DNA of 64,000 nt from a virus, in IMG/VR virus record IMGVR_UViG_3300024308_000018, positions 165,747 through 229,746 of that record; one strand, given 5' to 3'. Made by a program: the position numbers and the translations under genes. Shown here one piece after another: positions 20,254-43,869 of the stretch. Every line of letters begins with the position of its first letter. The first letter of the stretch is position 1. The notes beneath the pieces were generated by a model. That model worked only from the letters and a program-made list of their open reading frames with translations. It searched no databases and had not been told where the DNA came from.

Positions 20254-20829
20254 TTAATCGTAATACGCGATCATGCGGATGCCGTCTTCGGCGTAGGTGG
20301 CATGGTTCCACATATCGGTGTCCGGCACGTTGGCGGCAGCGGCGGCCGCAGAGAGCAGCAGACCGTACACACCATCTTGGCCTTCGCTTGCCATGGTCTC
20401 GACGTCGAACACGCGGGCACCGCTCTGCGCGTCTGACGCTACCTCGGTGAAATCCGCGTGGTCGCAGGCACTGATCACCTTGTCGCCGACCAGCACAACG
20501 AACGACGCCTCCTTCGGAACTCTAGTTCCCTGCACCAACAGCTCGTACTGCTCAACGTAGAATGGCGACAGAGTTTTCACCGCGTCCGGTTTGCGGTCGA
20601 ACATGAACTCGCCGTCGCCTGCAACTTCCAGATCCGGATACAGGTAGACTTGGGCGCTGGCCGCAAGTGACAGCTTCGTGGTGTCCAGCCCAGCGAACGG
20701 CGCGCTGTCCTCAGTCTCACCCGATACGCGGGCCCACGTGTTGATAGCACTCAACACGCTTTGCGACGTGCTCAGGTAGGGCACTTCTTCGTGACGCATC
20801 ACGTAGACTTTTGCAACTACAGATTCCAT
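20254..20829 (-). CDS. Paralogous family protein A (unknown function)
   Basis: The product is 191 residues. It resembles the proteins at 20840-21412 and 22709-23164. All begin with a VxV-(M/V)-R strand. They share a YxxP segment (VYLYPDLEV), a core strand SFVVLVG and a C-terminal PDT...ED...MI pattern (ANVPDTDMWNHATYAEDGIR). No catalytic motif was seen. It is the last gene of the - strand accessory block before the bidirectional terminator. Confidence 0.75.
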   Translation of the reverse strand: MESVVAKVYVMRHEEVPYLSTSQSVLSAINTWARVSGETEDSAPFAGLDTTKLSLAASAQVYLYPDLEVAGDGEFMFDRKPDAVKTLSPFYVEQYELLVQGTRVPKEASFVVLVGDKVISACDHADFTEVASDAQSGARVFDVETMASEGQDGVYGLLLSAAAAAANVPDTDMWNHATYAEDGIRMIAYYD

Positions 20830-30889: not shown

Positions 30890-32113
30890 TTACTTGCCAG
30901 AGTACATTTTGACTTTGTTGCTGAACACGTCGGCGACCAAAGTATCGAACAGCGCACGCGCTTCGGCCTTGGCTGCCTTGAAGTCGCCGGAGTCCACAGC
31001 GGTGGAGAAGATGCGCTGCATATCGGCGGTGAACTTCGGCGGCACGCGGCACTGACGCTTGCCCAACTGCTTGGTGAAGTTCATCAGAGCGAACTGGGCA
31101 TTCTCTTTGGCCTTGCGACGCAGCTCAACCTTGGTCATTTCTTCCGGCTTGAGTCGGTTCATGACGCGCGCTTTGAAGTCAGCCTGAGTACCAGCCATGA
31201 CTTTCGCGAACTCAACGTAGCCGTAGGTCAGACCCAGCACGTTGTTCACGTAGTTCTTCACGGAGTCGATACCGCGCAGCCCTTCGATCTTGGTGGTTTC
31301 GGCCAGAGCTTCGTTGCCCTTCTGAACGGAGGTGATCACCCGGTTGTACGCGGCGCAGTGCTTGCGGATGTTCTCGATGGACTTGGCAGTCATGGCAGGA
31401 GCCTTGGTCAGCATGCCTTGGAACTGGTTACGCAACTTGGTAGCGGCCAGAATCTGGGCCTTCTGCTTCTCTTCCTTGGTAGCAGCCTTGGTGGTCGGCA
31501 CAACCTTGTCGGCCGGAGCTTTCACCGGAGCTTTCTTGCCATCGGCAACAGCTGCGTCTCTCTTTTCCATGATGGTGGTCAGGGCTTTGGTGACTGCATC
31601 CTTGCTGAGCAGGCGCGACTGGTTCGGATATTGAACGCTGTGCATACCAGCCCACTCTTCCACCGCTTTCTGGACTGCGGTCGCCATATTCTTGCCCTTG
31701 GCGAATCGGACTTTGTAGGACAGGCGATCAGCAATCTCTGCAATCTCACCCTTGGAGAACTTCTTGGCTTTAGCCTTGGTTCCATCGGGAGCAGAGAACC
31801 CAGCAGGCTGCCGACCGGACGGGGAGGTAGCGAGATCGCGCTTGGGGTTTCCAGTATTCACCTTGGGTTTGAATGCGGGTTTCTTGGTTTTCCCGTTGGC
31901 GTTGAGCAGGCTCGTAAGTCTACCAAGTTTCTCTTGCGCCTCCTTCTTGCTGGGGAAGCCCGCAGCTTTTATCTCGGCAACAGGGCCGATAGACAGATCG
32001 TTGAGGCGGCGAATAGTTGGCAGCAACGGGGCAGCCAGTTTGCTTCCGCCAATCAGGGCGTCAACGATTTCAGCCAAAGACTTCTTGGCAGATACCGACA
32101 GTTGAATTTCCAT
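30890..32113 (-). CDS. Lys-rich protein, possible internal virion protein
   Basis: The product is 407 residues and strongly basic, with Lys/Ala/Pro-rich linkers at about 75-115 and 195-225 and helical segments between. It starts MEIQLSVSAKKSLAEI, one of the M-x-I/L-x-L starts common in this block. High basicity suits DNA contact inside the capsid. No domain was recognised. Confidence 0.65.
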   Translation of the reverse strand: MEIQLSVSAKKSLAEIVDALIGGSKLAAPLLPTIRRLNDLSIGPVAEIKAAGFPSKKEAQEKLGRLTSLLNANGKTKKPAFKPKVNTGNPKRDLATSPSGRQPAGFSAPDGTKAKAKKFSKGEIAEIADRLSYKVRFAKGKNMATAVQKAVEEWAGMHSVQYPNQSRLLSKDAVTKALTTIMEKRDAAVADGKKAPVKAPADKVVPTTKAATKEEKQKAQILAATKLRNQFQGMLTKAPAMTAKSIENIRKHCAAYNRVITSVQKGNEALAETTKIEGLRGIDSVKNYVNNVLGLTYGYVEFAKVMAGTQADFKARVMNRLKPEEMTKVELRRKAKENAQFALMNFTKQLGKRQCRVPPKFTADMQRIFSTAVDSGDFKAAKAEARALFDTLVADVFSNKVKMYSGK

Positions 32114-32127
32114 ATCTTGTTCCTTAC

Positions 32128-32847
32128 TTATTGAATCCAGATGTTGTTGAATGGGACTGTGTGCTTGACGATCTTGCCTTTGTCGTCAGTCGTGGTGATC
32201 AACGCTTTCTCGCTCGGCAGCAGAAACATGAGGCGTCCAATGTGGTCGAGGGTTCCCTCACTGAACTGAACATCCTGCCCGCGCAGTCGGCTGATCTGCC
32301 ACGCGGTCTTCGTAAACTTCACCGCGCCTTTCGCCCGTGCTTCACGTCCTACAAGGAATTGCAGGAAGTGCTTGCGGGCTTGCAACGCGTGGTCGTCCTG
32401 AACCCGAGTCACGTCAGTGTTGAGCATAGCGAATGCGGTGGCGTGTTCGATGGCCTTGAAGTTCAGAGCCTCAACTCGCGCACCGCTTGCCAGCCCGAGT
32501 TCCACAACGTAACGTCCCTTGGCAAACTTGTGGATGCCGATGGACGAGTTGTTCATGCGGTTAGTCCACACGATGGAAAACATATCGGAGCCTTCAAGAC
32601 GGGTGGTGATCGTGATAGGCCCGAACCGGGTGTGCTGGCTACTACGCGACGCCTGCTGCGCGTTGGATGCAGATTCAATCTCACCCAGCATGCAGGCTTC
32701 GGCCTCACGCTTGTCACGCAGCTTGCGCGCAGATTCAAACATCTCGCCAAACATGTTGTCGAAGATGTCGCCGAAACTTTCAGCGAAGGAGAGGCTGGCG
32801 AATTCTGATTCCGTTTTTACTTGATTCAATCCTAATGCAATGTTCAT
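32128..32847 (-). CDS. Hypothetical protein with tag-like N-terminus
   Basis: The product is 239 residues. It starts MNIALGLNQVKTESEF, nearly the same as MNINLGLNMVSES of the Acb1-like gene nearby, although the codons differ. A helical acidic region (FGDIFDNMFGEMFESARKLR) follows, then a beta-rich C-terminal domain (RFGPITITTRLEGSDMFSIV). The start overlaps the MmcB-like gene stop by one base. Function unknown. Confidence 0.65.
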   Translation of the reverse strand: MNIALGLNQVKTESEFASLSFAESFGDIFDNMFGEMFESARKLRDKREAEACMLGEIESASNAQQASRSSQHTRFGPITITTRLEGSDMFSIVWTNRMNNSSIGIHKFAKGRYVVELGLASGARVEALNFKAIEHATAFAMLNTDVTRVQDDHALQARKHFLQFLVGREARAKGAVKFTKTAWQISRLRGQDVQFSEGTLDHIGRLMFLLPSEKALITTTDDKGKIVKHTVPFNNIWIQ

Positions 32848-33383
32848 TAGTTAACTCTCCGTGCCCGAGACAAGCCAGAAATCCACGCGAGCTTGGTGAA
32901 CAACCAAATGCGTCGAGCAGGTGCCATTTTCCTTTTAGCCGCAGGCAGGACTTTGCGCACAGGGCCGCCATTCCTACAAACGATGATACCAGCGCCTGAC
33001 CCAGCCAACGCTTCCTTCAAGCGGTCAGCATGAGTGTCCCAAAGCGCGTCGCTCACTGCGAAGTAGAACTGGTTGCAGAACGGTAAATAGCGCTGCCATT
33101 TTTGGTCTGCCGCAAAATCCTGCCATCCACTTTTCACCTCGACTATCGTGACAGAGCGATCCATCTTCACACATACGACGTCAGCACGTAAATGCCCGCC
33201 CCTCTCGACCCCCACCTCAAAGTGCAGGCTATACATGAGCTTCGTGAAGTATGGAGACAGTGCCTGACGCAATAGCGGGGCAACTTGATTTCGACTGATC
33301 GACGTGAAGGTCGCGGGCCCCAGATTACCGAAGGCCCGCTGACTCGGTGTCTTACTCGTCGTCGGTTTCCTCGTACTTGGCAT
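32847..33383 (-). CDS. MmcB-like putative nuclease
   Basis: The product is 178 residues from ATG 33383 (GAGG 6 bases upstream), overlapping the preceding gene by 32 bases. The core RADVVCVKMDRSVTIVEVKS, then GWQDFAADQKWQRYLPFCNQ and FYFAVSDAL, follows the MmcB family of DNA-repair-associated proteins with a restriction-endonuclease-like fold: D...(V)EVK with a following Q/W. Asp and Glu-x-Lys would bind metal. The C-terminal tail is basic. Its role in the phage is unknown; DNA processing or degradation is likely. Confidence 0.7.
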   Translation of the reverse strand: MPSTRKPTTSKTPSQRAFGNLGPATFTSISRNQVAPLLRQALSPYFTKLMYSLHFEVGVERGGHLRADVVCVKMDRSVTIVEVKSGWQDFAADQKWQRYLPFCNQFYFAVSDALWDTHADRLKEALAGSGAGIIVCRNGGPVRKVLPAAKRKMAPARRIWLFTKLAWISGLSRARRVN

Positions 33384-33909
33384 AAGCATCCTCACGGATC
33401 GGTTCCCAAGTCTCGCCGCCGAAGACGAGGCGCACGCCACTGAACGCACCAGCATTCAGACCCTGATTGAGCAAATCCAAGTCCAGCTGGTCGGCAGGAA
33501 CTTTGATCGTCATGTGCGGCTCATACTCAGGGTAGCTGTGACGGTAGCCCATCTGACGCAGGTACTTGTGACGCGCGATCAGACCTTGACTATCCAGCTT
33601 CAGCACCAGCGTGTTCTCTTCGGGCCCGAAGAGCGCACCGCTATTCACGGTAGCCTCGATCTGAATCGGGGCCGCCGGATGGAACAGCACGGGGTTTTCG
33701 CGGTCGTACATCATTGTCACGTGCAGGTCTTTGGGGTCGAAGTCAGTCTTCAGACCGATCTTCTCCAACTCAGACATGACAAACCGCACGGTCTCCGGAG
33801 TGGGATACACAGCAGCGTAGCCAGCGGGGGTCGTGCGGTCGGGGTCGTTCTGGCGGCCACGGCGTCGGGTGGATTCCGAAACCATGTTGAGGCCGAGATT
33901 GATGTTCAT
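33352..33909 (-). CDS. 2H phosphoesterase resembling anti-CBASS Acb1
   Basis: The product is 185 residues. Two HxT motifs of the 2H superfamily are present: LHVTMMYD (63-65) and PHMTIKV (132-134). LVLKLDSQGLIARHKYLRQM and SYPEYEPHMT match the pattern of Acb1 (T4 gp57B), which hydrolyses cyclic oligonucleotides and blocks CBASS defence. A 25-residue N-terminal extension starts MNINLGLNMVSES, a sequence shared in the block. Other 2H enzymes (LigT-like RNA cyclic phosphodiesterases) are the alternative. Confidence 0.75.
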   Translation of the reverse strand: MNINLGLNMVSESTRRRGRQNDPDRTTPAGYAAVYPTPETVRFVMSELEKIGLKTDFDPKDLHVTMMYDRENPVLFHPAAPIQIEATVNSGALFGPEENTLVLKLDSQGLIARHKYLRQMGYRHSYPEYEPHMTIKVPADQLDLDLLNQGLNAGAFSGVRLVFGGETWEPIREDAYAKYEETDDE

Positions 33910-33919
33910 TGGATTCTCC

Positions 33920-34312
33920 TTACAGGGCGTCCATCGGCATGCGCATCAGGACAACGCTATGTTGATAACTGAGAGGCACATTTGCCAACTTGGCGTCGTC
34001 GGAACGCACAGAAGTCACGCGCCCGATAGGGGAACCATGCGCAACACGATCAATGAGATACGACGTGACCACAGAATTGTCTACTGGGTCTTCCACCGCA
34101 AACCCGATGGGGTCTTTGGTGGTGAGCGACGGCGCGCCCAGCACAACGAAGTTGAGATCTTCCACGTGGTCGGGGTTCACTTTCTTCAGTGCTGCGCGAA
34201 TCGGGTTGGGGGCATTGGCGTATGCAGCTTTCCGAACACGGTCAAGGAACGTGATTACGGGGTCTGCGGACAGCGAAGCGTTAGCAACGCAAAGGTTGAG
34301 TTCAATGTTCAT
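33920..34312 (-). CDS. Paralogous family protein D with tag-like N-terminus
   Basis: The product is 130 residues. It starts MNIELNLCVANASLS, an M-x-I-x-L start, and its core HVEDLNFVVLGAP matches HVEDVSFVFLMGP of the protein at 22709-23164. It is therefore a fourth member of the accessory-block family placed next to the Acb1-like gene. Function unknown. Confidence 0.7.
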   Translation of the reverse strand: MNIELNLCVANASLSADPVITFLDRVRKAAYANAPNPIRAALKKVNPDHVEDLNFVVLGAPSLTTKDPIGFAVEDPVDNSVVTSYLIDRVAHGSPIGRVTSVRSDDAKLANVPLSYQHSVVLMRMPMDAL

Positions 34313-42695: not shown

Positions 42696-43207
42696 TATGT
42701 ACTCCAGATAAGACGACAAGCATCACACTTGAACTGAACGACCAGAGGCTCATTGGACGGTTGACGCGCAAGCGCCAGCCCGTCGAAAGACATAGGCCAG
42801 CAGTTGCGTACTTCAATCGTCACGACGAGTTGCCCTGTCGTATCGTACAGCCCACAGCTGATGTTCTTCTTGTAGGTGGACGGGAGACGGAAGGCACCAT
42901 TGTACGGATTCTGAATCAACTGCTGCCACGTATCGAAGTAGCGCAGAGCATGCAGTTTCGCAGTGGTTGCCGCCTCCATTGAGAATTGGCCGGGCCGAGT
43001 ACCGTTGGCGAAGTAGATTTCGCTGGATGCAATGTTCTTCGCGCGCTCTTGCAGCACGTTGAACGGAGGCGTCACAGCTTCAATCAATTCAATGGGGAGC
43101 TTGAGGCCGCCGATGTCGGGCAACGCCAGCACTTTCCATTTGTCTGATTGCCACGGCTCGTATTGACCTTCAGAGTGTTTTTCTAGTTGTGCCAGCGTAA
43201 CGGTCAT
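42695..43207 (-). CDS. Tail-tube-fold protein, possible tube initiator
   Basis: The product is 170 residues. FDTWQQLIQNPYNGAFRLPS, then CGLYDTTGQLVVTIEVRNCW and VVQFKCDAC, matches the pattern of the tail tube protein at 43914-44429 (IMRKWQALIRATQTATGKF, VTFRLLDQTGALVDETTIKG). It is probably a tube-like baseplate protein (T4 gp48/gp54 role). It ends with a CDAC pair. Confidence 0.65.
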   Translation of the reverse strand: MTVTLAQLEKHSEGQYEPWQSDKWKVLALPDIGGLKLPIELIEAVTPPFNVLQERAKNIASSEIYFANGTRPGQFSMEAATTAKLHALRYFDTWQQLIQNPYNGAFRLPSTYKKNISCGLYDTTGQLVVTIEVRNCWPMSFDGLALARQPSNEPLVVQFKCDACRLIWST

Positions 43208-43869
43208 GAATCCACCTTAACCATTAACACCGCCCGCTCGGGCTGCGTCTTGGAAGTTGGCTGCTGCACAACGGCTCCGACTTCGTGGTTGGTGCCTGCC
43301 ATGGCGGCGAGCAGCAGTTTCTCCGCGTGCTTCTCCCACTGCTCAGCTTTCAACTTCGATTCCACGTAGGAGGAAGTCGCATCGTAGTAGAAGACTTTGC
43401 CGTCACCCATATCAGCGTTGCGCATGTAGGTAATACTGCGCGGCTTGGGGAACGCTTGCTTGCGAAGAGCAGTCAGGATGTCTTTGGCGTTGCCTACAGC
43501 TTTGGTTTTGGTATCGGGGGCCGGATCGGCTGGCGGCTGTGCCGTTGGGTCACGTGGAACGTTCGCGCCCTTGACCAGTCTGCTGTTGTTTACAGCTTTG
43601 CCCTTCACTCGTCCCTTGTAATACGTTGCACGGCTCATGAGGGAACGTGCGGTTTTCGCATCGCACTTGAACAGCTCAGTCGGCAGGTCTTCGTGTGCAA
43701 CGTAGAACACACCACGCGGCCCGATGAAGATACCGAAGCGTTCGCCCGCATCTATCTGAACTTCGTATTCCTTGTTTTCGAGATATACACCACGCGCCCC
43801 AGTGAACTTGAACCAATCGAATTCAGTGTACTGCGGCTTGGCGGCGGATAGGCTCAAATTTAAGAGCAT
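43204..43869 (-). CDS. Hypothetical protein with tag-like N-terminus
   Basis: The product is 221 residues. It starts MLLNLSLSAAKPQYTEF, an M-x-x-x-L-x-L start. A globular N-terminal half and a Pro/Lys-rich linker at about 105-125 are followed by a helical end. It follows the tail tube gene after a terminator, and its stop overlaps the next gene by 4 bases. Function unknown. Confidence 0.62.
   Translation of the reverse strand: MLLNLSLSAAKPQYTEFDWFKFTGARGVYLENKEYEVQIDAGERFGIFIGPRGVFYVAHEDLPTELFKCDAKTARSLMSRATYYKGRVKGKAVNNSRLVKGANVPRDPTAQPPADPAPDTKTKAVGNAKDILTALRKQAFPKPRSITYMRNADMGDGKVFYYDATSSYVESKLKAEQWEKHAEKLLLAAMAGTNHEVGAVVQQPTSKTQPERAVLMVKVDS

Follow-up and report, generated by a model that had tools for sequence, protein, structure and literature searches.

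Does the minus-strand gene at 33352-33909 encode an enzyme that destroys CBASS signals, and why does this protein begin with about 28 residues that the characterized Acb1 proteins do not have? The window, the whole stretch of 64,000 nucleotides analyzed here, comprises positions 165747-229746 of a virus record of 229,746 bases (G000) with 243 predicted genes, and all features whose window coordinates are given below are on its minus strand. The open reading frame begins with an ATG codon behind a good ribosome binding site (AAGGAG) and encodes 185 amino acids. It is the sole acb1 copy in the record and is located between a block of baseplate genes and an MmcB-like gene. The corresponding stretch in phages JA13 and Y3 contains a NUDIX gene, MmcB and dTMP kinase; the acb1 homologue in Y3, JA13, Yoloswag and Alexandra is found in a replication region together with exonuclease, SSB and RecA genes.

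The encoded protein is a member of the Acb1 family of 2H phosphoesterases, as a reading made from the sequence only had proposed; profile, predicted fold and catalytic residues all agree on this assignment. Residues 31-174 match the Pfam Acb1 family (PF23474) with 65.4 bits, far over the cut-off of 27, whereas LigT (PF02834; 15.8 bits, cut-off 23.3) and 2_5_RNA_ligase2 (PF13563; 22 bits, cut-off 27), the type of families against which that reading had suggested comparing it, remain under theirs. The top match by sequence among solved structures is the FBB1 Acb1 (7t26). In an AlphaFold2 model of the protein, for which 15 natural sequences were used, a 2H core at approximately residues 30-170 is predicted with confidence. 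The sequence-only reading would have been abandoned if a LigT-type enzyme provided the best structural match; in a Foldseek search of the model against the PDB the best five matches are all Acb1 entries, with E values of about 1e-8 to 1e-9, and LigT-type enzymes follow far behind at 5e-5 and weaker. A PADLOC run on the gene matched nothing.

The two HxT motifs and the LVLKLDSQGL...PEYEPHMT pattern noticed earlier are both present in the translation. The first motif, H63-V64-T65 (33715-33723), aligns with H44 and T46 of Acb1, and the second, H132-M133-T134 (33508-33516), with the second Acb1 HxT (H113 and T115 in T4), which together reproduce the catalytic tetrad. In addition, Y31, Y126 and E166 align with Y12, F107 and E141 of the T4 enzyme, of which E141 contacts the adenine. 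The characterized Acb1 proteins (T4 gp57B; FBB1, 7t26/7t27; BCSR5, 9q2g/9q2y) likewise have the 2H fold with an HxT/HxT tetrad and are the best structural matches; however, the window protein differs from these in its N-terminal extension, in the adjoining baseplate genes, and in that the base-stacking W74 and the lid tryptophan W147 have no clear counterpart in the alignment. These differing lid residues, the weak sub-threshold matches to 2_5_RNA_ligase2 and LigT, and the labels of its relatives in PHROG and GenBank (RNA ligase or cyclic phosphodiesterase; PHROG 755, labeled 'RNA ligase', matches at 2e-27) could suggest a LigT- or CPDase-like 2H enzyme that acts on RNA 2',3'-cyclic phosphates or other nucleotides instead of CBASS signals. 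Given an Acb1 profile match far above and a LigT match below the cut-off, and a structural ranking that places the Acb1 entries first, this alternative is very unlikely, and we reject the LigT reading. Judged by its family, the protein very probably has the enzymatic activity of Acb1, and we infer from the same membership that it would serve as an anti-CBASS protein. As an enzyme, it adds a new member to a family already known.

The extension at the start of this enzyme is a different matter. Residues 1-25 have a pLDDT below 50 in the AlphaFold2 model and the fold starts at residue 30, with the first strand at residues 30-36; the earlier claim that about 25 residues lie outside the 2H fold is borne out. 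The extension consists of an N-terminal tag, MNINLGLNM (residues 1-9; 33883-33909), and a basic, flexible linker (residues 10-28, VSESTRRRGRQNDPDRTTP; 33826-33882). Its first eight residues match those of two neighboring, unrelated genes. The acb1 stretch of the window contains four genes with related N-termini: the gene for a 130-aa protein (33920-34312) with the tag-like start MNIELNLCV, whose sole relative found is in G001, a relative of the window phage (92%); acb1 itself; the gene for a 239-aa protein (32128-32847) whose N-terminus, MNIALGLNQ, is of the same tag type as that of Acb1; and the gene for a 407-aa protein (30890-32113), which carries the consensus tag MEIQLSVSA according to the tag matrix described below. 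This last protein shares 60% identity over its C-terminal 300 residues with the C-terminal portion of a G001 protein of 710 aa (L057, G001:C1:66749-68881), the N-terminal region of which looks DNA methyltransferase-like; the domain common to both proteins is joined to the tag in one phage and to another partner in the other.

The resemblance of the Acb1 extension to the start of a neighboring gene, also remarked on in the earlier reading, is closest for the 32128-32847 protein: MNINLGLN and MNIALGLN have seven of eight residues in common, the two proteins are otherwise dissimilar, and the likeness goes beyond chance in a permutation test. Over residues 2-8, six of the seven amino acids are identical, but only one codon is. 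This bears on the possibility that the common start works at the level of RNA or translation, through the early codons, and not as a peptide. The tag does always start at the start codon; nevertheless, the peptide is kept while the codons differ, and genomes that range from approximately 44% G+C (JA13, G004) to 57% G+C (G000) have similar tags, which makes this explanation extremely improbable. Between G000 and G001, residues 1-28 of Acb1 have undergone five synonymous changes and no amino-acid change. The tag of the 32128 gene is the same in these two phages, with seven changes among the ten residues behind it; over all carriers, the conservation of the tag relative to the residues that follow is a small effect.

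Related starts are found well beyond this stretch. A pair test that assumes no motif, applied to residues 2-8 of the 243 G000 proteins, found eight pairs with at least five identities where 0.59 are expected, and the maximum in 300 permutations was four. All eight pairs are formed by tag or tag-like genes, including Acb1 and its neighbor, and one of the eight consists of two paralogues. When nine tag carriers were compared behind their tags, no significant mutual similarity was detected. The consensus spans nine N-terminal residues, M-[EKQ]-I-x-[LVI]-S-L-S-[AK]. The cleanest test uses a matrix for which 31 N-termini, taken from JA13, G004, Y3, Yoloswag and Alexandra and none from the window phage, served as the training set: it recognizes five of the 243 genes in G000 (P 6e-6) compared with 0.24 expected from internal methionines, and nine of the 128 genes in G001 (P 2e-14) compared with 0.13. 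Applied to control jumbo phages, the matrix finds no gene in two and one in the third. With a looser four-position criterion, the tag is present on 50 of the 1,886 proteins encoded by seven related jumbo phages, compared with 0 of 1,223 in four other genomes, one of which is PaBG, a distant relative; these and all other figures for the tag serve as guides only, because the criteria were fixed after the pattern had been noticed, orthologous carriers were counted once per genome, and the starts came from our own gene caller. Positions outside the looser criterion are biased as well (polar EKQNR at position 2, IVL at 3, and A or K at 9), with no bias at positions 10-11. A limited search of open-access literature text found no earlier description of such a tag. 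On statistical comparison of these N-termini, a portable tag on otherwise unrelated proteins exists, and the Acb1 extension points to its presence in a lineage of jumbo phages.

Acb1 has a divergent tag that fits the consensus only marginally: MNINLGLN scores 1.5 bits with the independent matrix, which is the eighth best score of the 243 genes but only within the best 1% of decoys. This modest score, and the fact that most acb1 homologues have no extension (including most of those in Alexandravirus and Salmondvirus, which are without the tag), could be taken to indicate that three neighboring genes share a random or locally copied start that is unrelated to the consensus and has no targeting function. 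We consider this quite unlikely. The extension probably belongs to the tag family, because the start of the neighboring gene is shared through different codons, because residues 1-28 show no amino-acid change between G000 and G001, because the consensus tag MEIQLSVSA is found two genes away, and because versions of it are present on other acb1 genes. The acb1 genes of Yoloswag and pEa_SNUABM_5 begin with MKVSLSMPN and MKVTLPISN, respectively, if an upstream ATG is the start, and the acb1 of PaBG (gp228) begins with MQIKVAMYSAEA and that of a PaBG relative with MMIKLSMKK. In the two former cases (L014 8013 for Yoloswag and L030 3977 for pEa_SNUABM_5) the tag-like start is added by the longer reading, and the Yoloswag start may lie upstream of the annotated one. 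A kinase-like protein encoded at position 65314 of G000 begins with MQINMGLPN and its PaBG homologue with MKINVPLSSAEA; the acb1 and kinase-like families therefore both carry the local tag type in the window phage and in PaBG. The Acb1 of Alishewanella phage Slickus01 (L019 2929-3423) has an extension, MNITELYEALTSES, that looks unlike the tag and could represent another type of leader.

Tag carriers with a known domain are polyvalent-type ADP-ribosyltransferases (ART-PolyVal), NUDIX hydrolases, a KMPT-N protein and Acb1. The KMPT-N protein (43204-43869; PF20294, 2.5e-12) is encoded in the tail gene block and starts with MLLNLSLSA; its orthologues at the same place in related phages start with MLIFLSESA, MLFFVSVSA and MLLFISASA, and in JA13 and Y3 this carrier is located between tail tube genes. 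Each related phage record has KMPT-N domains at three to five places, several of which are in structural gene blocks. The 'ISTS' paralogues at positions 20313 and 22524 of G000 were left out of the count of consensus carriers; their relatives start with MEIEVSLSAL in JA13, MEILVSLSAL in G004 and MEIVVSLSAL in Yoloswag. Tagged and tag-like genes also form tandem clusters, one outside the window (G000:C1:20313-27630) and one in G001 (L054 3069-14774), which contain ART-PolyVal, ART-like, NUDIX and unknown genes and two large paralogues starting with M..ISTSALKPSQYR. A search of viral contigs for relatives of the ART recovered G001 only. A tagged 190-aa protein of G001 (L054 4305-4877) has a weak match, below cut-off, to a metallopeptidase-type domain model.

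What function might such a tag have? The sequence-only reading had raised the possibility that the enzyme is packaged and delivered with the DNA. We put the chance that the tag is a packaging signal at about even, and favor this function because of the classes of enzymes that carry the tag, the existence of portal-fused 2H domains, the example of phiKZ Tad1, the T4 capsid targeting sequence, and the presence of a prohead protease. According to a survey of viral NAD+ and ADP-ribose systems, contractile-tailed phages often package their ARTs and Nudix proteins; the survey also describes some 2H domains of phages as joined to portal or MuF domains, which suggests packaging against nucleotide signaling (PMC9503650). 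The profile of the group that includes the window Acb1 matches the portal protein of Pam3 (8hds_A, residues 484-593, 1.3e-7), possibly a virion-borne 2H domain. The enzyme classes in these polyvalent effectors are those of the tag carriers; however, the effectors, proposed or shown to be in the particle, are joined either to one another or to structural domains, whereas the tagged enzymes are single and have a short tag. In T4, a capsid targeting sequence of 10-20 residues is found on unrelated internal proteins, including the ADP-ribosyltransferase Alt, and is, like the tag, a short N-terminal peptide on unrelated proteins (PMC5694885). Its consensus seems to differ from that of the tag, and no common site for a prohead protease was seen among the tag carriers.

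The putative prohead protease of the window phage (57008-57799) resembles two proteins that are annotated as prohead core protein protease, JA13_132 (approximately 52% identity) and Y3_143 (55%); a Peptidase_S77 search of the record gave no match, and neither did its positive controls. We looked for a prohead-protease site following the tag across the carriers and found none in common; as a shared feature such a site is unsupported for most of them. The acb1 gene of PaBG is located two genes from the PaBG prohead protease. In the head module of the PaBG relative, a 501-aa protein with the tag-like start MLVSLSLAT (L180 202-1707) is encoded two genes upstream of the prohead protease. gp228 is not among the proteins listed for the 14 bands of the PaBG particle, and none of the nine bands with checkable N-termini has a clear tag. 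A look for virion proteomics in the JA/AD1 paper turned up none.

Many tag carriers are found in replication or early-looking regions, outside the head modules. Like the PaBG particle proteins and the lack of a common protease site, this counts against packaging. For a tag that is real and portable, this location could also suggest action in the infected cell, where it would dock enzymes to a hub such as the replication site, a membrane, RNA polymerase or a chaperone. This explanation seems rather unlikely, as the carrier classes equal those proposed as packaged (PMC9503650) and one conserved carrier is located between tail tube genes.

Our preferred explanation, held tentatively and with slightly less than even confidence, is that the window gene encodes a 2H phosphoesterase of the Acb1 family that carries a short targeting tag at its N-terminus, by which it is packed in the prohead and delivered with the DNA. 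The tag, a strand-like peptide of about nine residues with alternating hydrophobic positions followed by the basic flexible linker, would recruit Acb1 to an assembly partner in the prohead, where it would be packed alongside other tagged enzymes such as the ADP-ribosyltransferases and NUDIX hydrolases, with the prohead protease available for head maturation. The tagged enzymes would then enter with the DNA, ahead of any phage gene expression. The 2H domain would cut CBASS cyclic di- and trinucleotides 3' of adenosine, independently of metal and through H63/T65 and H132/T134, and the cleavage of the signal would stop the activation of the effectors. An anti-defense protein acting at injection, as favored here for the tagged Acb1, has been reported for phiKZ, which injects the anti-CBASS and anti-Thoeris sponge Tad1 (PMC13282480). 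Tad1 is a binding protein and not a nuclease, unlike Acb1. To our knowledge, the two have no tag in common.

From T4, a stand-alone form of Acb1 is known. Since CBASS may already respond at an early stage of infection, a pre-packaged Acb1 would be a different strategy. More broadly, though we hold this with somewhat less than even confidence, a jumbo-myovirus lineage may load a changing set of enzymes (ARTs, NUDIX hydrolases, Acb1 and unknowns) by means of a nine-residue code unlike that of T4, which would provide counter-defense before the first transcription. The tag may represent a new signal for the loading of proteins into phage heads, and it makes testable which proteins of jumbo phages are injected. 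If this explanation is true, then the N-termini alone would list the injected effectors of tag-bearing jumbo phages, and a code that can be read from the sequence would provide ranked candidates for such effectors in several phage genera.
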